From Psychrobacter raelei (GTDB taxonomy: Bacteria; Pseudomonadota; Gammaproteobacteria; Pseudomonadales; Moraxellaceae), in NCBI RefSeq assembly GCF_022631235.3, contig NZ_CP093310.2:2852001-2916000 (forward strand): a stretch of DNA of 64,000 nucleotides, written 5' to 3'. Below are positions 26,535 to 36,000 of this stretch, piece by piece; within the stretch, counting starts at the first letter, position 1; each line of letters begins with the position of its first letter. Below the pieces are notes generated by a model. That model was not told where the DNA came from and ran no database searches. It saw only the letters and a program-made list of their open reading frames with translations. The position numbers were made by a program, and so were the translations under genes.

Positions 26535-27779
26535 TTAAGCAATGGTCACTTTAGCAAAAGCCTTTTTACCGGCCTGAATCACTACCGATTGACCAGAAGT
26601 TAGGCTAAAGCCTGCGTTTACTTCCTCACCATCTACCTTCACTGCATTGCGCTTTAGCATGTCTTTGGCAGCAGCGCTGTTTTTGGCCAAGTCTGCTTGG
26701 TTTAAGATTTGAGTGATAAATAACGCCTCTTGACCAGCCTCTAGCTCTAGAGTTACCTCTGGTAAATCAACAGGTAACTCACCATCGGCTAAGACGTTAC
26801 CGGCTGATTTGTGGGCATTTGCTGCCGCTTCGGCACCGTGGAAACGCTCGATGAGCTCTTCAGCTAGGATGCGCTTAATCTCTTGCGGATTACGGCCGGC
26901 TGCCATCTCAGCCATTAAGGCGTCCACTTCGCTCATGGGCTTAAAGCTTAAAAACTCAAAGTAGCGATGGATAAGCGAGTCTGGCATAGATAAGATTTTT
27001 TGGTACATGGTACCCGGTGCGTCTTCGATACCGACGTAATTGCCAAGTGATTTTGACATTTTATTAACGCCATCTAACCCCTCTAAGATAGGCACAGTAA
27101 TGCACACTTGCGCTTCATGGCCATAACGGCCTTGTAAGGTGCGCCCCATTAATAGGTTAAAGGTCTGATCAGTCCCCCCCATCTCAACGTCCGCTTCAAG
27201 CGCAATTGAGTCATATCCTTGTACTAATGGATATAAGAATTCATGGATAGCAATCGGAGTTTGTGAGGCATAGCGCTTAGCAAAGTCATCACGTTCAAGC
27301 ATACGCGATACGGTTAACTGGCTTGCCAACTGAATCATATCGCCGGCGCTCATGTCATTGAACCACTGTGAGTTAAATACTACGTTGGTTTTCTCTTTAT
27401 CTAAGATTTTAAAAACCTGTTCAGCATAAGTCTTAGCATTGGCCATCACCTGCTCATCAGTAAGCGGTGGACGGGTAGTATTCTTACCAGAAGGGTCACC
27501 AATTTTAGCAGTATAGTCCCCAATCAAAAAATAGATCTCATGGCCTAAATCTTGAAAATGCTTTAATTTATTGATTAGTACTGTATGCCCTAAGTGTAAA
27601 TCTGGGGCGGTGGGGTCAAAGCCGGCTTTAATTTTTAAGGGACGGCCCAGCTTTAGTTTGGCCACCAAATCTTCTTCTGAAAAAATCTCATGAGTGCCGC
27701 GCTTAATGATAGCCAGCTGCTCGTCTAGACTTAAAGCATTGGATGGACTTGATGATTGTTCTGATGTCGCTTGGCTCAT
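26535..27779 (-). CDS. tyrS: Tyrosyl-tRNA synthetase
   Basis: This is a class I aminoacyl-tRNA synthetase that charges tRNA-Tyr. The protein has 414 residues. The HLGHT signature (HIGH motif) follows FDPTAPDL, the ATP-binding KMSKS appears in [13 protein letters not shown], and a C-terminal S4-like RNA-binding domain (about 345-414) is present. The ordering and the KMSKS form suit the TyrZ-like subgroup. GAGGC lies 4 bases before the ATG. Confidence 0.95.
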
Positions 27780-28276: not shown

Positions 28277-28783
28277 ATGAATATAGATTTTGATCATTTA
28301 GAAAAAATAATTGCGCTCGCTGAACGCTCAAATATTCAATCATTAGAAGTGGTGGATGGATCTCAGCGCATACATGTTGTTTGTCAGGCGGCAAGCTTAG
28401 CCAATACCGCTGAGTTAGCGCATAGCCCTACCACTCATCATGGTGCAAATACCCAAGCACAGACTCAAAACATCCCCGCAGCCTCATCAACTGCTACGCC
28501 CTCTTGTGATCAAGACACTGCAAAATCTGCTGACTTGGCCACCAAGACAACCGTTATCGCGCCGATGATGGGCACGTTTTACCTACGCCCTGAGCCTAAT
28601 GCTGAGGTGTTTGTTCACGTTGGTGATAGCATCAAAGCTGGTGATACCCTATGTGTGATTGAAGCGATGAAAATTATGCATGAAGTCAAAGCGGAGACTG
28701 ACTGTGTCATCGAGAAGATATTAATCAAAGAAGGTGATGTGGTCGAATTTGATCAGTCTTTATTTGAAACTCGCACGCTGTAA
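28277..28783 (+). CDS. Biotin carboxyl carrier protein of the 5-oxoproline cluster
   Basis: The protein has 168 residues. An AccB-like N-terminus (residues 1-36) is followed by an Ala/Thr-rich linker (about 45-90) and a biotinyl domain. The biotinylation motif EAMKIM has Lys132 as acceptor. The thumb region and TVIAPMMGTFYLRPEPNAEV are canonical. It should carry carboxybiotin made by the biotin carboxylase encoded next door. Its place ahead of pxpB/pxpC argues for a dedicated carrier rather than the fatty-acid AccB. AAGGA lies 6 bases upstream; the next gene starts 91 bases on. Confidence 0.9.
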   Translation: MNIDFDHLEKIIALAERSNIQSLEVVDGSQRIHVVCQAASLANTAELAHSPTTHHGANTQAQTQNIPAASSTATPSCDQDTAKSADLATKTTVIAPMMGTFYLRPEPNAEVFVHVGDSIKAGDTLCVIEAMKIMHEVKAETDCVIEKILIKEGDVVEFDQSLFETRTL

Positions 28784-28874
28784 AGCAAATTCGTACCCTC
28801 TGCTTTATTTATCATTTTATGACACGCATTATTACCCTGTGTAACCTTTAACCTGCCTCTGCAAGGAAGCCGAT

Positions 28875-30221
28875 ATGTTCAAAAAAATTCTGATAGCCAA
28901 TAGGGGTGAGATTGCCCTACGTATTGTCCGTGCCTGTCAACAAATGGGCATTAAATCAGTGGTGGTATATTCTCAATCAGATAAAGATACGCTTGCTGTA
29001 AGATTAGCAGATGAAAGTGTTTGTATCGGTCCTGCACCTGCTCCTAAAAGTTATTTAAACCAAGAAGCCATCATTTCAGCAGCAGTCATGAGCGGTGCTG
29101 AAGCCATTCACCCCGGCTATGGATTTTTAGCCGAAAACGCCGCTTTTGCTGAAGCGGTAACTGACGCAGGATTGGTTTTTATTGGCCCTACTGCACAAAA
29201 CATTCGTCAAATGGGTGACAAAGTAGAAGCCAAAAAACAAATGCTACTAGCGGGTGTTCCTTGTGTCCCTGGCTCTGAGGGCGCCTTGCCAGAAACTGAA
29301 AATGAGGTATTGGCACTCGCCGAGAAGGTGGGCTATCCGGTGATTATTAAAGCGGCCAGCGGTGGTGGTGGCCGTGGTATGCGTGTGGTCGACAAACAAA
29401 GTGAGCTGCTTAAAGCCATTGCAATGACCAAGAGTGAAGCGGAAGCCAACTTTGGTGATTCTGTGGTGTATCTTGAACGTTATTTACAAAAACCACGTCA
29501 TATCGAGGTGCAAGTCTTGGCCGATACCCAAGGCCACGCGATTCACTTAGGTGAGCGTGATTGCTCAATGCAGCGCCGCCATCAAAAAGTGATTGAAGAA
29601 GCCCCTGCTCCAGGTATCAGTGAATCACAGCGTCAACAAATTGGTGAGGCCTGTGTTAATGCCTGCAAGAGAATGGGCTATGTTGGTGCGGGTACGTTTG
29701 AATTTTTATATGAAAATGGCGAGTTTTTTTTCATCGAGATGAATACCCGCATTCAAGTGGAACATACCATCACCGAGTTGGTGAGTGGTATTGATATTGT
29801 CCAAGCTCAAATTACCGTAGCTGCAGGTCTACCTTTATCGTATCAACAGACTGACGTTAAGCTTTCTGGCCATGCGTTTGAATGCCGAATTAATGCCGAA
29901 AATCCTTACACCTTTTTACCGACACCCGGCAAAATCAGCTATTGCCACTTCCCTGCAGGTATGGGCGTACGTGTCGACAGTCATGTTGAGTCAGGCTCAG
30001 TGATTCCCCCCTCTTATGACAGTCTGGTGGCCAAAATATGTGTTTATGCAGCAGACAGAGCCACGGCAGTGAATTATATGCAAGCAGCACTCAAGGAAGC
30101 TAGCATAGAAGGCATTGATACCAATTTAGCTTTACATAAGCGCTTGTTTGAGGATAAAGGCTTTCAAGAAGGTGAGGTTAGTATCCATTATTTAGAACAG
30201 TGGATTGAGCAAAATATTTAA
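28875..30221 (+). CDS. Biotin carboxylase of the 5-oxoproline cluster
   Basis: The protein has 448 residues, the length of AccC. It is an ATP-grasp enzyme that carboxylates biotin on a carrier protein using bicarbonate and ATP. Landmarks are [67 protein letters not shown] and [16 protein letters not shown]. In the last, T replaces the proline usual in AccC. AAGGA precedes the ATG. A second chromosomal accBC pair for fatty-acid synthesis is expected elsewhere, so this copy is probably specialised for the pxp enzyme. Confidence 0.92.
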
Positions 30222-30258
30222 CTGACTCTATATTATCAACCCTTAAAGGACTTAAGGC

Positions 30259-30954
30259 ATGCCAAACTTGATCAGTAATGCTGAACTCAACAGCCCTGAC
30301 CAGCACACTTGGCAATTATGTAGTGAGACCAATTTAACGCTACATTTTGCTAAGCCTATCACCCTACAAAAGCAGCAGCTTTGCTGGGCTTTGGCTGATC
30401 GTATTCGCAAGCTGCTGACGGTGACCGAAGTCGTCATTGGTATGAATACTTTGAGCGTTTTTACCCAGCCATTAACTTTTATTGAGCTAAATGAGCTAAA
30501 ACAACACCTAACACAGCTGATAAAACAAACAGAGGGTCAAAGCATTCAAGGCAAGCATATTCAGATACCTGTGCAATATGGCGGCGAATATGGCCCTGAC
30601 CTAAAGCCGATGGCTCAGGCGTTAGGCCTGTCTGTAGAAGAGGTGGTAAAGCTACACAGCGAGGCAATTTATACCGTTTACTTTATTGGATTTCAGCCAG
30701 GATTTCCTTACTTGGGCGGCTTATCAGAAAAGCTTTATTTCCCAAGGCGAGAGACACCGCGTACTCAGGTTCCAGCAGGCTCGGTCGGTATTGGCGGTGA
30801 ACAAACGGGGGTATACCCCTTCTCCTCCCCAGGCGGTTGGCAATTGCTAGGGCGTACTCAGATGCCGCTGTTTGATTTGACACAAAACCCGCCGACCGCA
30901 CTGAGTGCAGGAGATACTCTGCAGTTCACGGTGCTTGATATTCATTACTCGTAA
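30259..30954 (+). CDS. pxpB: 5-oxoprolinase subunit PxpB (KipI-like)
   Basis: This is a subunit of the ATP-dependent 5-oxoprolinase PxpABC and is homologous to part of the urea carboxylase carboxyltransferase domain. The protein has 231 residues. Family motifs are VYFIGFQPGFPYLGGL, PRRETPRTQVPAGSVGIGG and QTGVYPFSSPGGWQLLGRT. It is preceded by AAAGGA and followed by pxpC 21 bases later. In Bacillus the homologue KipI also inhibits a histidine kinase, but genomic context here favours the enzyme role. Confidence 0.93.
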   Translation: MPNLISNAELNSPDQHTWQLCSETNLTLHFAKPITLQKQQLCWALADRIRKLLTVTEVVIGMNTLSVFTQPLTFIELNELKQHLTQLIKQTEGQSIQGKHIQIPVQYGGEYGPDLKPMAQALGLSVEEVVKLHSEAIYTVYFIGFQPGFPYLGGLSEKLYFPRRETPRTQVPAGSVGIGGEQTGVYPFSSPGGWQLLGRTQMPLFDLTQNPPTALSAGDTLQFTVLDIHYS

Positions 30955-30975
30955 ACAAGGGATAGGCCACTGATT

Positions 30976-31935
30976 ATGAAGATTTTAGCCTCAAATGCGT
31001 TAGCCAGTTTTCAAGATTTGGGGCGCTTTGGCTTTCGTAGCCTAGGCGTGGGCACAAATGGAGCCATGGATCCTTGGGCATTAAAAGCTGCCAATGCTTT
31101 ATTACAAAACCCATTAGATACGGCTGCCATTGAAATTACTTTAGGCAGCTTTAGCGTGCAATTCGAGCAAAATACTTGCTTTTGCTTGACTGGGGGATTG
31201 TATGAGGCCTATCTCGATGAGCAGCGGGTGTACGCTTATTGGCGCATTACGGCTCAGGCTGGACAAACCTTAAAGCTTGTGCGCCCCCTGCAAGGCATGT
31301 ATACCTATTTTGCAGTGCAAGGCGGCTTTGATATTGAGGCTGTTCTGGGCTCAAAAAGCACCAATACTAAGGCCGAATTTGGTGGCTTAAACGGGCGGTT
31401 TTTGCAGCCACAAGATAGCGTTAAAGTCGCCAAACTAGACTCAGCACATAGGCATACCAGCGAGATTGGCGTGGCCGCTCCTCGTATGCCAGCTTCCCAT
31501 CTTGATAGCAGCGCGCCCCAAATCCGCGTTATTGCCAACAGTGAATACGACCACTTTACTGAGGCTGCCAAACACAACTTTGAGAATCAGCTGTGGCAAG
31601 TCGATACCAGCAGCAACCGTATGGGCTATCGCTGTATTGGTGAAAATATACTTGAGTTTGCTCAAAAGTCAGAGATGAGCTCGCATGGCGTGGCCGCAGG
31701 CATGATTCAGGTGCCCCCTCAAGGCCAACCCATTGTGTTAATGGCCGATGCCCAAACGACAGGTGGCTACCCTAAGATTGCCACCATTATTGAGGCGGAT
31801 ATTGGACTGATGGCACAGACCCGTTTTGGCCAAAAATGCCAATTTAAAATGGTCTCTATACAAGAGGCAATACAAGCCCGTCAAGACAGACACCGTTATA
31901 TTGAACGTATTAGGAAATATGCTTATGACCACTAA
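30976..31935 (+). CDS. pxpC: 5-oxoprolinase subunit PxpC (KipA-like)
   Basis: This is the partner of PxpB and the second half of the urea-carboxylase-like carboxyltransferase module. The protein has 319 residues. It begins with ASFQDLGRFGFRSLGVGTNG and AMDPWALKAAN; FAVQGGFDIEAVLGSKSTN, SNRMGYR and the late DAQTTGGYPKIATIIEAD are conserved. The gene overlaps the start of pxpA by 11 bases, which fits coupled translation of a complex. Confidence 0.93.
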   Translation: MKILASNALASFQDLGRFGFRSLGVGTNGAMDPWALKAANALLQNPLDTAAIEITLGSFSVQFEQNTCFCLTGGLYEAYLDEQRVYAYWRITAQAGQTLKLVRPLQGMYTYFAVQGGFDIEAVLGSKSTNTKAEFGGLNGRFLQPQDSVKVAKLDSAHRHTSEIGVAAPRMPASHLDSSAPQIRVIANSEYDHFTEAAKHNFENQLWQVDTSSNRMGYRCIGENILEFAQKSEMSSHGVAAGMIQVPPQGQPIVLMADAQTTGGYPKIATIIEADIGLMAQTRFGQKCQFKMVSIQEAIQARQDRHRYIERIRKYAYDH

Positions 31936-32689
31936 TTTACCTGTTAATAAACTGCAAACTATTGATTTGAATGCAGATGTGGCTGAAGGCTGTGGCCAAG
32001 ATATTGCTTTAATGAATATTATTAGCTCTGCTAATGTCAGCTGTGGTTTACATGCCGGCTCGTATCAGCACATGCTTGAGACCTTAAAACTGGCCAAACA
32101 GCATAATGTACGAGTCGGGGCACATCCTGGCTTTGATGACAGAGATAACTTTGGGCGCACCGCACAGCAGCTACCAGAAGAAGAGTGCCGTGCCCTAATT
32201 CATTATCAGCTGGGTGCAGCAAAAGCCATGTGCGATTTGGTTGGCGTTAAGCTAAGTTATGTCAAGCCGCATGGCGCTTTATATAATCAGGCGGCTAAGG
32301 ATGAGAAGTTGGCTAAAATTATTGTCAATGCGGTCAAAAACTTTGATCCAAGCCTAGCAATTATGGGGCTATCGGGTAGTTACCTAATCAGCGTCGCTAA
32401 GGCTCAAGGCTTAACCTCAATCTCCGAAGTCTTTGCTGATCGTAACTACGAAAGCGATGGCTCTTTGGTTGCCCGAAGCAAAGACAATGCACTGATTACC
32501 GATGCGACCCAAGCAGCCCAGCACGCTCTACAAATGATTACCCAAGGCATCGTGACCAGTGTAGATGGAGTTCAAGTACCTGTGGAAGCCCAAAGTATTT
32601 GCCTCCATGGTGACAGTGAGCATGCTGTGCAGTTCGCAGCTGAGATTAAGCAAAAGCTTGAGCAACAAGGCATTCTCATTTGTATCTGA
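31925..32689 (+). CDS. pxpA: 5-oxoprolinase subunit PxpA (LamB/YcsF family)
   Basis: PxpA supplies the lactam-opening part of 5-oxoprolinase, releasing glutamate. The protein has 254 residues when started at ATG 31925. This start has a TAGGA upstream and aligns with the family N-terminus. A longer frame from 31826 would run inside pxpC and is rejected. Motifs are IDLNADVAEG, ISSANVSCGLHAGS, GAHPGFDDRDNFGR and YVKPHGALYNQA. These hold the histidines and aspartates of the polysaccharide-deacetylase-like barrel. Confidence 0.93.
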   Translation: MTTNLPVNKLQTIDLNADVAEGCGQDIALMNIISSANVSCGLHAGSYQHMLETLKLAKQHNVRVGAHPGFDDRDNFGRTAQQLPEEECRALIHYQLGAAKAMCDLVGVKLSYVKPHGALYNQAAKDEKLAKIIVNAVKNFDPSLAIMGLSGSYLISVAKAQGLTSISEVFADRNYESDGSLVARSKDNALITDATQAAQHALQMITQGIVTSVDGVQVPVEAQSICLHGDSEHAVQFAAEIKQKLEQQGILICI

Positions 32690-32776
32690 TGATTTTAATT
32701 TGAGTATGTAAACACCCCCTTAACCTTAAAATATTTTAAGACTACTCCTGACAGCTCACCGACAACAAGGATGTTT

Positions 32777-33961
32777 ATGACAGCATTAAAAAAGAAAAAC
32801 ACCGCAATATTAGGAGCCGCTTTCTTAATGGCGACCTCCGCTGTAGGGCCGGGATTCTTGACCCAGACCGCTACCTTTACCGAAAGCTTAATGGCAAGTT
32901 TTGGCTTTGTGATCTTAATATCCATCATTATGGATATTGGGGTTCAGCTTAACGTTTGGCGTGTTATCGCTGTCTCCAAGATGCGCGCACAACAAGTGGC
33001 TAACTTAGTATTCCCAGGGGTTGGCTATTTACTTACTTTCTTGGTCGTGCTTGGCGGGCTGGCTTTTAACATTGGTAACATCGGTGGTGCAGGTTTGGGT
33101 ATGCAGTCTGTATTCAACATCTCCCCCATCACTGGCGCCCTTATTAGTGGGGTAATTGCGGTAGCCATTTTCCTAAGCCGTGAAGCGGGACCTATGATGG
33201 ACCGATTTACTCAGCTGATGGGCTTTATTCTACTGATTTTGATTATCTATGTGATGTTCAAATCAAATCCTCCCTTTGCTGAAGCAGTGACTCGGACTGT
33301 TATGCCTAGCAAAATTGATGCGATGGCCATCGTAACTTTGGTGGGTGGTACGGTCGGTGGTTATATCACTTTCTCCGGTGCTCACCGTCTGTTGGAGGCG
33401 GGTGTCAGTGGTGAAGAGAACCTGCCGTCTGTCACTCGCAGTTCAGTATCAGGTATTTTAATAGCGTCGATCGTACGTGTCTTTTTATTCCTAGCAGTAT
33501 TGGGTGTGGTGTCTAAGGGTGTATCGCTCGATCCATCAAACCCGGCTATGTCACCTTTTGAGCATATTTTAGGCAATGCCGGTAAGATTATCTTTGGTAT
33601 TGTGATTTGGGCCGCCTCCATTACTTCTGTCATTGGTGCAGCTTACACATCCGTCTCGTTTATGAGTAATTTTCATCCCTTTATCGAGCGCAACAGCCGC
33701 TACTTTATTATTGGCTTTATCCTCATCTCTACCTTTGTGTTCGCCACCGTGGGTAAACCTGCTCAGTTATTGGTCTTGGCAGGTACACTAAATGGTCTGA
33801 TATTACCTATTGCTATGATTATTATCCTGATTGCCGCTTATCGCTCTAATATTGTGGGCAGCTATAAGCATCCGATTTGGATTGCCGCTTTTGGTTGGAT
33901 CATTGCGCTTATCATGAGTGTATTAAGCGTCATTACTATTGCAAATTACATCACCGGTTAA
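32777..33961 (+). CDS. NRAMP-fold transporter of the 5-oxoproline cluster
   Basis: The protein has about 394 residues and eleven hydrophobic segments. The segment TSAVGPGFLTQTATF aligns with helix 1 of NRAMP proteins. However, the DPGN metal motif is GPGF and no MPH motif appears in the expected sixth helix, where GGTVGGYITFSGAHRLLEAG is seen. The metal-ligand set is therefore missing. The Bacillus pxp operon carries a similar gene, ycsG, so I infer an organic substrate such as 5-oxoproline. AAGG lies 6 bases before ATG 32777; an ATG at 32771 abuts it too closely. Confidence 0.82.
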   Translation: MTALKKKNTAILGAAFLMATSAVGPGFLTQTATFTESLMASFGFVILISIIMDIGVQLNVWRVIAVSKMRAQQVANLVFPGVGYLLTFLVVLGGLAFNIGNIGGAGLGMQSVFNISPITGALISGVIAVAIFLSREAGPMMDRFTQLMGFILLILIIYVMFKSNPPFAEAVTRTVMPSKIDAMAIVTLVGGTVGGYITFSGAHRLLEAGVSGEENLPSVTRSSVSGILIASIVRVFLFLAVLGVVSKGVSLDPSNPAMSPFEHILGNAGKIIFGIVIWAASITSVIGAAYTSVSFMSNFHPFIERNSRYFIIGFILISTFVFATVGKPAQLLVLAGTLNGLILPIAMIIILIAAYRSNIVGSYKHPIWIAAFGWIIALIMSVLSVITIANYITG

Positions 33962-34042
33962 ACAAGATCGCTAAGTTTTGCCTAACGATATAAACCTAAA
34001 ACAATGGTTTCGCACCTATTATGAAGAGAAAAAGGGAGCAAC

Positions 34043-34513
34043 ATGGACATTACGACCATTGAAGCTGTGGTAAAAAAAGTTGCCAACAGCTCAGTACAGC
34101 AAGTTACCATCAGTGAGGGCACTCAGTCCATTACTGTGGTGAATCGTAGCCCATCGCAGCTAAGCAGTACTGCAAGCTATGCTACAGCTGAAAATAGTGC
34201 TACAGCTGAAAATAGTGCCACAGCTAAAAATAGTACCGCCGCCGCAGATCAACAAGAGAGTGATTCTAACAAACCTGCTGCCAAATACATCACCTCAACC
34301 TATGTGGGTTATGTTCAACTGGGAAAAGATGCGGCTGCGGCACCATTAGTACAGCCAGGGGATAGCGTCCAAGTCGGTCAAACTGTGGCTTATATCGATG
34401 TTTTATCTAAACTGATGCCTGTGCTGAGTGAAGATAATGGCATTGTTGAGGCGGTTTTGGTCAATAATGCAGATAAGGTAGATTATGGTAAGCCCCTTAT
34501 TAAAATTCAATAA
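34043..34513 (+). CDS. Degenerate biotin-carrier-like protein
   Basis: The protein has 156 residues. Its N-terminus (MDITTIEAVVKKVANSSVQQ) resembles the AccB N-terminal helix, and its C-terminus resembles a biotinyl/lipoyl hammerhead with VQPGDSVQVGQTVAYID and a closing DYGKPLIKI. Where the cluster's true carrier has EAMKIM, this one reads DVLSKLM. Ser122 sits at the biotin-lysine position and Lys123 one residue later. A three-copy 6-residue repeat (ATAENS type) fills the linker. GGGAG lies upstream. It ends the likely operon before a terminator. It may be a non-biotinylated paralogue with a structural or regulatory role. Confidence 0.85.
   Translation: MDITTIEAVVKKVANSSVQQVTISEGTQSITVVNRSPSQLSSTASYATAENSATAENSATAKNSTAAADQQESDSNKPAAKYITSTYVGYVQLGKDAAAAPLVQPGDSVQVGQTVAYIDVLSKLMPVLSEDNGIVEAVLVNNADKVDYGKPLIKIQ
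34181..34234 (+). repeat. Three tandem 18-bp units in the carrier-protein linker
   Basis: The unit GCTACAGCTGAAAATAGT occurs twice exactly (34181-34198 and 34199-34216). A third copy (34217-34234) carries two changes. The period is a multiple of three, so copy-number change alters the linker length without a frameshift. Confidence 0.92.
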
Positions 34514-34602: not shown

Positions 34603-36000
34603 ATGACACATACTGACGCACCCTCTTTAGACCATTCTTTATCCCCCTCAGACAGCTCTTTAGAACATTTAGATCCTCATGAAAGCCATCTAGAAGACTT
34701 AGAGTCTGCTTTATCAGACACCCTCTTTGAGAGCTTCGATAGCGGCTACTACATTGGCATGATGTCAGGCACCAGCCTAGATGGTATGGACGCTGTGATT
34801 TGTCAGTTTGATAGCGCAGAGGCTACAGATGCTGCAGCAGACAAAATTGTGGCCACCCATTCACAGCCCTTCCCTGAACACCTGCGTGAGACCTTATTGG
34901 CACTGTGCCAACCCAATGGTACCGCCCAGCTTGCCTATCCAGTAAAAAACATTATTTTGGATCAGCAGCCACACAGCGAGCTTGAGTGGTTTGGCTGGGC
35001 GAGCCGAGAGTATGCCGAATTTGCCAGTACCGTGGTCAATGAGCTGCTACAAAAGTCAGGCATTAGTCCTGAGGCCATCTTAGCCATCGGCTGTCATGGT
35101 CAGACTGTGCGTCACCGTCCCAACTTAGGGTTTAGCTTACAGTTGGTCGATCCCAATATCATCGCTGAGCGCACCGGAATTAGTGTGGTCACCGATTTTC
35201 GCCGCCGCGATATGGCGGTGGGTGGACAAGGCGCGCCGCTGGCACCCGCTTTTCATTTAGACCAGTTTGGTGCGCCGTTAGAGCCGTCACAACACAATAG
35301 TGGCCACCGTATCGTCGTCAATCTAGGCGGCATTGCTAACATTACGGTGCTGCCAGCCAGCTCAGCTGAGCAGCAAGCAGCTTCGGTGATCGGTTATGAC
35401 ACCGGCCCGGCCAACATCCTGCTTGATGCTTGGTACCAATACCATGCGCCAAGTCTTGATGAGAGCCTCAAAGACAATGAGCTGTACGATACAGATGCCA
35501 AGTGGGCGCAGTCAGGACAAGTGAATGATGAGCTGTTAAATCAGTTGCTGAGTCACCCCTATTTTACCCAGCCCACGCCCAAAAGCACTGGACGTGAAGA
35601 TTTCAATCTCTCCTGGTTACAGCAGCAGCTTGAACAGTTACCCGAGCAGACTCACGCCCAACTGCATCCGCAAGACGTGCAGGCTACATTAACTGAGCTA
35701 AGTGCCCGTAGCTTAAGCGATGCCATTGCCGCAGAAGCGACTCGACTTGATATGACAGGTGGTGAGCTGATTGTGTGTGGTGGCGGTGCTTACAATGCTT
35801 ATTTGCTTAAGCGTCTTGCTGCGTTATTGCCAAACTGGCAAATACTGACCAGCGCAGACTTTGGGATTGCGCCTACTTGGGTAGAAGCCATGGCGTTTGC
35901 TTGGCTTGCACGTCAGACCATCATGGGTGCCACCGGTAACCTGCCTGCGGTTACCGGTGCCAGTAAGACAGTGGTCTTGGGTCAGGTGTGTTTTGCCTAA
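34603..36000 (+). CDS. anmK: Anhydro-N-acetylmuramic acid kinase
   Basis: AnmK phosphorylates anhydro-MurNAc released in cell-wall recycling, giving MurNAc-6-phosphate. The protein has 465 residues, longer than the usual about 370. Residues 1-47 are an acidic Ser/Asp/Glu/His-rich extension before the conserved YYIGMMSGTSLDGMD. Other motifs are GCHGQTVRHRP, TDFRRRDMAVGGQGAPLAP, VNLGGIANITVLP and GRGDF-like GREDFNLSW, with LIVCGGGAYN near the end. It is convergent with trxC, 17 bases apart. Confidence 0.93.
   Translation: MTHTDAPSLDHSLSPSDSSLEHLDPHESHLEDLESALSDTLFESFDSGYYIGMMSGTSLDGMDAVICQFDSAEATDAAADKIVATHSQPFPEHLRETLLALCQPNGTAQLAYPVKNIILDQQPHSELEWFGWASREYAEFASTVVNELLQKSGISPEAILAIGCHGQTVRHRPNLGFSLQLVDPNIIAERTGISVVTDFRRRDMAVGGQGAPLAPAFHLDQFGAPLEPSQHNSGHRIVVNLGGIANITVLPASSAEQQAASVIGYDTGPANILLDAWYQYHAPSLDESLKDNELYDTDAKWAQSGQVNDELLNQLLSHPYFTQPTPKSTGREDFNLSWLQQQLEQLPEQTHAQLHPQDVQATLTELSARSLSDAIAAEATRLDMTGGELIVCGGGAYNAYLLKRLAALLPNWQILTSADFGIAPTWVEAMAFAWLARQTIMGATGNLPAVTGASKTVVLGQVCFA

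Follow-up and report, generated by a model that had tools for sequence, protein, structure and literature searches.

Why should genes for biotin-dependent carboxylation stand among those of a 5-oxoprolinase? The question is raised by a 64,000-nucleotide stretch of the Psychrobacter raelei genome (contig NZ_CP093310.2, positions 2,852,001 to 2,916,000 of the forward strand; here called the window, whose own numbering is used throughout). Seven open reading frames (ORFs) between 28277 and 34513, all on the + strand, encode in order a biotin carboxyl carrier protein (BCCP1), a biotin carboxylase (BC), PxpB, PxpC, PxpA, an NRAMP-fold permease, and a second carrier-like protein (BCCP2). Judged by sequence, the pxp module is real and conserved, is linked to biotin genes, and includes a second carrier that is not biotinylated. 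The genetic link between BC and the pxp genes is well supported and the chemistry unproven; our best explanation, to which we assign a probability of about 0.45, is a dedicated 5-oxoprolinase, linked to biotin and encoded by the cluster.

In such an enzyme, BC would spend ATP to load CO2 onto the biotin of BCCP1, and the carboxybiotin would go to the PxpB-PxpC pair, which has a carboxyltransferase (CT) fold, for activation of 5-oxoproline. Activation would most simply be carboxylation of the lactam nitrogen by PxpBC, after which PxpA would hydrolyze the activated ring and N-carboxyglutamate would give glutamate and CO2. Like plant BADC, BCCP2 would carry no biotin and would instead serve the BC-BCCP1 part as a subunit for assembly or regulation, and the permease would import 5-oxoproline or else Mn2+. 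These parts do not carry equal weight: this BC probably acts with this PxpBC, whereas N-carboxylation of 5-oxoproline as the activating step is a tentative proposal that we hold at somewhat less than even odds.

The coordinates and family profile scores agree with the original prediction of seven genes on one strand with short gaps (91, 37, 21, -17, 81, and 81 bases, in order). The negative value reflects the ATG chosen as the start of pxpA, which overlaps pxpC; the longest frame opens at TTG 31826. BCCP1 (28277..28783) passes the cut-off of the AccB equivalog TIGR00531 (120.7 bits; cut-off, 115.2) and has the biotinyl Lys132 within EAMK, as predicted. The AccC-type BC (28875..30221) passes the AccC equivalog TIGR00514 (685 bits; cut-off, 626.5). 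PxpB (30259..30954), corresponding to CT subdomains C-D, and PxpC (30976..31935), corresponding to subdomains A-B, pass TIGR00370 (249.7 bits; cut-off, 145.55) and TIGR00724 (331.8 bits; cut-off, 230.2), respectively; PxpC scores 318 bits against the narrower PxpC equivalog NF045499, for which the cut-off is 500. PxpA (31919..32689), a hydrolase of the LamB/YcsF type, passes NF003815 (389 bits; cut-off, 337), and the permease (32771..33961), of the YcsG/PxpT/MumT type, matches the Pfam Nramp domain with 91.5 bits. The spacing suggests that the seven genes form one operon; promoter-like sites (17, against 13.4 in shuffles) and terminator-like sites (9, against 9.1) were not in excess, so the suggestion draws on spacing.

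Conservation of the cluster argues that the layout is meaningful. The PxpB-type domain PF02682 occurs once in the 3.17-Mb host genome, in 69 of 149 genomes of a family sample, and in 143 of 299 genomes of a phylum sample. We analyzed 20 regions from the family sample and 120 from the phylum sample (among the matches listed), those left out of the latter being for the most part full-length urea carboxylases and places further down the ranking. Profile models place both PxpB and PxpC in 116 of the 120 phylum regions; 95 of these lack a same-strand BC nearby, 14 have a fused BC-BCCP beside a fused PxpBC and PxpA, and 7 are split, including one (L120) that is of the fused type with a divided PxpBC. 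Among Moraxellaceae split loci, BC, PxpB, PxpC, PxpA, and two carriers are kept in all 27 (24 distinct PxpC sequences, three loci probably being the same genomes counted twice), and the permease was recognized in 25. The layout is thus not due to chance, and we rejected the idea of chance neighbors. Among the 80 top-ranked of 591 confirmed loci from a search based on the permease, the closest is that of Psychrobacter pasteurii (93%).

The linkage recurs in other lineages. Plasmids of Rhizobium phaseoli and Burkholderia pyrrocinia carry BCCP, accC, PxpB, PxpC, PxpA, and a second carrier in other gene orders, the rhizobial second carrier matching 171 plasmid records, and two Domibacillus loci have the order PxpB-PxpC-BCCP-BC-PxpA-NRAMP with one carrier only. 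On a tree of PxpB and PxpC, presence of BC changes 5 times, compared with 29.5 times in shuffles, and starred branches force all 5 changes, which indicates that BC was gained, or lost, several times. This was a quick tree with SH-aLRT as its only support measure and with long branches flagged; its 214 rows were thinned to 159, and a locus with a 1073-residue frame (L232), first labeled as BC linked, was coded as lacking BC.

Three biotin carboxylase C-domains were found in the host genome, including that of the window. The second adjoins an EAMK carrier (L002, L009) and is taken as a component of acetyl-CoA carboxylase (ACC); the third sits in a BC+BCCP protein of approximately 700 residues. 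The BC of the window has the expected active-site residue at 12 of 12 E. coli BC positions checked and is 57% identical to the second host BC and 41 to 43% identical to three bacterial urea carboxylases. In a BC tree, BCs from the split clusters of Moraxellaceae and rhizobia group in a single clade (97*) beside the other AccC of the host, and those of fused clusters form a separate clade (100*); neither groups with the BCs of urea carboxylases. That tree is small and quick, with SH-aLRT alone, long branches flagged, and ten near-copies dropped, and its background is thin, comprising only two BCs, from one genome, besides urea carboxylase. Because the host has another BC-BCCP pair, the split-cluster BCs form one clade, and BC was repeatedly gained or lost, the biotin part of the cluster looks dedicated to the pxp module.

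A structure also bears on this association. According to its title, PDB entry 9yx5 is a long chain acyl-CoA carboxylase complex of Mycobacterium smegmatis with MSMEG_0435-MSMEG_0436 bound, and PxpC matches its chain V and PxpB its chain W; a literature search for a paper on this entry found none. Furthermore, a gene for the biotin importer BioY adjoins pxpC in one BC-linked locus (L152). The carboxybiotin route draws on the linkage, the fusions, this bioY gene, and 9yx5. Thus, the part of the original prediction that assigned the BC and its carrier to the pxp module is upheld by the BC clade, linkage in several lineages, and 9yx5.

The most surprising part of the cluster is BCCP2 (34043..34513), which has a biotinyl-domain fold with Ser at the attachment point. 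It is a weak BCCP by profile (67.8 bits against TIGR00531, with PF00364 above its cut-off), yet it aligns with E. coli BCCP along its full length, the last 56 residues free of gaps and Ser lying opposite the biotinyl Lys. The Lys of an LSKLM motif was considered as the biotinyl position and ruled out, as ungapped alignments place Ser there. When carriers in two-carrier loci are classed by position relative to BC, all 33 upstream carriers retain the biotinyl Lys (27/27 Moraxellaceae and 6/6 others) and none of the 33 downstream carriers does. The latter instead have Thr (16), Gly (6), Ser (3), or Ala (2) in Moraxellaceae and His (2), Pro (2), Glu (1), or Ala (1) in the other six. This count supersedes one in which carriers were classed by EAMK/EVMK (40/40 and 0/53), which is partly true by construction. 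Among the best 120 of 201 database matches to a profile built from second carriers, none has Lys (His, 77; Ser, 20; Pro, 8; Asp, 8; Gln, 5; Val, 2).

In an AlphaFold 2 (AF2) model of BCCP2, the biotinyl domain is confident (blocks of 93 to 95, with one of 80) and residues 39 to 72 are not; the top Foldseek matches are E. coli 1bdo and Arabidopsis BCCP1. The N-terminal region is recognizable within the genus, and in the rhizobial second carrier the match to TIGR00531 starts only at residue 52. Within the genus, 19 of 60 genomes yielded the second carrier (E value of 6e-15 or better), so the module is patchy. The second carrier-like protein of the original prediction is therefore present, but a role as a second working carrier is rejected, since the biotinyl Lys is absent by sequence; we consider it rather likely that BCCP2 is a structural or regulatory subunit. 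A Lys-less carrier paralogue also lies at L112:3242-3712, separated from PxpA by approximately 2.6 kb. This pxp locus, which resembles Pectobacterium sequences (compare P0013), shows no BC within the 16.8 kb examined.

PxpB and PxpC retain the CT fold, and PxpC aligns with the CT of urea carboxylase; its AF2 model (mean pLDDT, 91.5) is closest to E. coli YbgK (5dud_A). A series of observations nevertheless weighs against a biotin-linked 5-oxoprolinase. The 95 phylum loci without BC are among these, as is a change in the active site. Lys1605 (K. lactis numbering) is the probable general base of urea carboxylase, according to the accessible part of PMC5770610, and it aligns with Arg163 of the window PxpB. 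Arg is found there in 50 of 52 rows from BC-linked loci and in 159 of 159 rows from loci lacking BC, whereas Lys is found in three of three urea carboxylases and in L151 and L152. The original prediction suggested that lactam opening could proceed by N-carboxylation in a urea carboxylase-like enzyme; N-carboxylation with the chemistry of urea carboxylase is not supported, and neither is a plain urea carboxylase-like machine. Whether or not BC is linked, PxpBC conserves the same positions, apart from a few exceptions in fused clusters, and a search for a residue marking BC-linked PxpBC found none common to all BC-linked lineages. BioY was likewise rejected as a general marker, with a tblastn match in L152 only, and the binding seen in 9yx5 may be regulatory or accidental. 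Published work, as far as the available text of each source goes, adds that pxpTABC alone suffices for growth of Corynebacterium glutamicum on 5-oxoproline (PMC13274462) and that PxpB-PxpC is reported, second-hand, to hydrolyze ATP (PMC8453981). Neither source, in the parts available, rules out involvement of a cellular BC-BCCP. Finally, in Acinetobacter baumannii, use of urea was impaired by deletion of mumC (BC-BCCP) and not of mumH or mumL (PMC5050338, in part), which fits poorly with a single BC-PxpBC-PxpA pathway.

Either PxpBC transfers a carboxyl group otherwise than urea carboxylase does, or PxpBC phosphorylates and BC acts elsewhere; Arg163 itself might hold the carboxylate of 5-oxoproline. 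At PxpB residue 106 (HIQIPVQYGG), His is commonest in BC-linked Moraxellaceae, rhizobia, and the fused group and occurs in 4% of rows lacking BC; the residue is Gln in the window and Cys in Domibacillus. L151 and L152 form a BC-linked PxpBC lineage near the urea carboxylase root that keeps the urea carboxylase Lys and has PxpA adjacent, and this lineage, more than the window cluster, may represent a true split lactam carboxylase. L152 also has genes for an ABC transporter of the branched-chain amino acid type, and an ORF near the L151 cluster encodes what we take to be a relative of the hydantoinase/oxoprolinase A subunit. In three Pasteurellaceae loci (L164, L166, L168), the pxp-NRAMP genes are followed by one for a biotin-domain protein of approximately 600 residues with EAMK, perhaps a decarboxylase alpha subunit.

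The second arm of this choice corresponds to an alternative that we regard as unlikely though serious, namely, that PxpABC phosphorylates with ATP, as assumed for Bacillus subtilis and C. glutamicum, while the neighboring BC and carriers serve as a spare ACC half, coregulated with glutamate supply and feeding AccAD rather than PxpBC. The ACC equivalog scores of BC and BCCP1 suit this alternative, as do the lack of BC in most pxp clusters and the missing urea carboxylase Lys, and in Staphylococcus aureus the linked genes were termed fatty acid synthesis genes by the authors (PMC11315280, in part). It accounts poorly for the repeated linkage, for the grouping of the split-cluster BCs away from the host's other AccC, for fused BC-BCCP beside fused PxpBC, and for 9yx5; in addition, accA and accD are neither between nor next to the cluster genes in the window, where alone they were sought.

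A biotin-dependent module could also act on another lactam, for example, 5-oxo-D-proline from the D-glutamate of cell wall turnover; we consider this improbable. We take D-glutamate cyclase to be the enzyme that makes 5-oxo-D-proline, and relatives of it were found by tblastn in 73 of 213 classified pxp loci, with one homologue elsewhere in the host genome (C1:1608032-1608460). The next gene downstream of the cluster (34603-36000, 89 bases after the BCCP2 gene) resembles anmK. Yet the cyclase is also near pxp loci lacking BC (48 of 160) and so is no marker of the biotin form, and sequence cannot reveal the substrate. The anmK-like ORF had no tblastn match (1e-10) in the other Moraxellaceae cluster loci examined. 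Upstream, on the opposite strand, an ORF at 26535-27779 presumably corresponds to tyrS, and its tblastn matches (1e-10) among these loci were confined to L050 and L160, which have identical PxpC. The flanking ORFs are thus not kept, which indicates that the place of insertion varies between species.

The published interpretation of the A. baumannii mum operon is a urea carboxylase combined with Mn import (PMC5050338, in part). Three loci (L253 to L255) fit mumTLUHC, with fused BC-BCCP and fused PxpBC, and profile models found no second carrier in them. The extra gene of this layout encodes a D-glutamate cyclase homologue (PF07286; tested in L255 and in the P. aeruginosa plasmid locus L259), which in L253, L255, L104, and L259 lies between pxpA and fused pxpBC and corresponds to mumU. 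This suggests that the mum layout is an oxoproline system, although the published mum data do not all fit. We treat as rejected, and as very improbable, the idea that the window encodes a split urea carboxylase with Mn2+ import by the permease: every urea carboxylase domain is present as a separate protein and A. baumannii mumC is needed for urea use, but Lys1605 is absent, the urea carboxylase equivalog TIGR02712 (1303.85 bits) is reached by neither BC (511), PxpC (147.5), nor PxpB (25.9), the host has urease and no allophanate hydrolase passing TIGR02713 (best, 211.7 bits; cut-off, 511.05), all 27 Moraxellaceae split loci include PxpA, and a D-glutamate cyclase homologue lies inside fused clusters of the mum layout.

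The original prediction also gave the cluster its own importer. An NRAMP-type permease is indeed present, but its cargo is disputed, since C. glutamicum needs PxpT to grow on 5-oxoproline (PMC13274462, in part) and B. subtilis YcsG, of the same type, is reported to import Mn2+ (PMC10448178, in part). Among 106 members of the permease family, MPH occurs in none and DPGN in 2. These we take to be the metal-binding motifs of NRAMP proteins, and their scarcity leans toward an organic cargo without proving it; the report on YcsG opposes this.

If the biotin chemistry is true, it would explain the CT fold of PxpB and PxpC, and a BC in the same operon makes a different 5-oxoprolinase chemistry directly testable. 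A wider version seems doubtful to us, namely, that PxpB-PxpC 5-oxoprolinases at large depend on carboxybiotin, borrowing BC and carrier from acyl-CoA carboxylase where none is linked, with a dedicated BC, carrier, and BADC-like subunit in Moraxellaceae, rhizobia, and Burkholderia; 9yx5 hints at such borrowing in mycobacteria. Nowhere in the literature searched, mostly outside subscription papers, was a biotin-dependent 5-oxoprolinase or a Lys-less second carrier described, and the cluster type is partly known from annotation (PMC11315280 and PMC5050338, each in part).

Compared with known systems, the window shares PxpA, PxpB, and PxpC with the PxpABC 5-oxoprolinases of B. subtilis, C. glutamicum, and E. 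coli (YbgJKL), its PxpC being 45% identical to YbgK by structural alignment. C. glutamicum and B. subtilis also have a permease of the same type (PMC13274462), while BC, a biotinylatable carrier, and a Lys-less second carrier are additions absent from the PxpABC operons as described in the available text. Urea carboxylase (K. lactis 3va7; bacterial TIGR02712) has the same domain set (BC, CT A-B, CT C-D, and BCCP), but in the window these are separate proteins, Arg replaces Lys1605, and PxpA is linked. BC genes and pxp-type genes also share one operon in A. baumannii mum, which has an NRAMP gene as well (PMC5050338), and in the six-gene pxpBC-accBC-pxpA operon of S. aureus, the published reading of which is fatty acid plus amino acid metabolism (PMC11315280), both as far as the accessible text goes; the linked BC asks for a second look at mum. 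Pseudomonas putida 5-oxoprolinase is described, in the part of PMC8453981 available, as a component A that is a hexamer of 64- plus 51-kDa dimers and a component B of 82 kDa. Among 13 fused-layout loci, 12 have a BC-BCCP of 60.5 to 65.3 kDa and one has a BC-BCCP of 73.8 kDa, PxpBC is 55.6 to 60.2 kDa in 11 of 12 and 84.5 kDa in one (the thirteenth locus being split), and PxpA is 26.1 to 29.0 kDa; by mass, the 64-kDa subunit fits fused BC-BCCP and the 51-kDa subunit has no clear fit. In 9yx5, as far as its title and chain names tell, homologues of PxpC and PxpB likewise occur with a BC-BCCP protein in one complex, the partner there being a long chain acyl-CoA carboxylase that has a CT of its own. 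BCCP2, finally, resembles plant BADC in being BCCP-like without a biotinylation motif, a likeness of features, and BADC belongs to the plastid ACC rather than to a pxp cluster. A literature search for a bacterial BADC found none. In the accessible part of PMC11926652, BADC is said to help assemble BC-BCCP and its subunit type is called unique to plants; BCCP2, without its biotinyl Lys, would be a bacterial case of that type.

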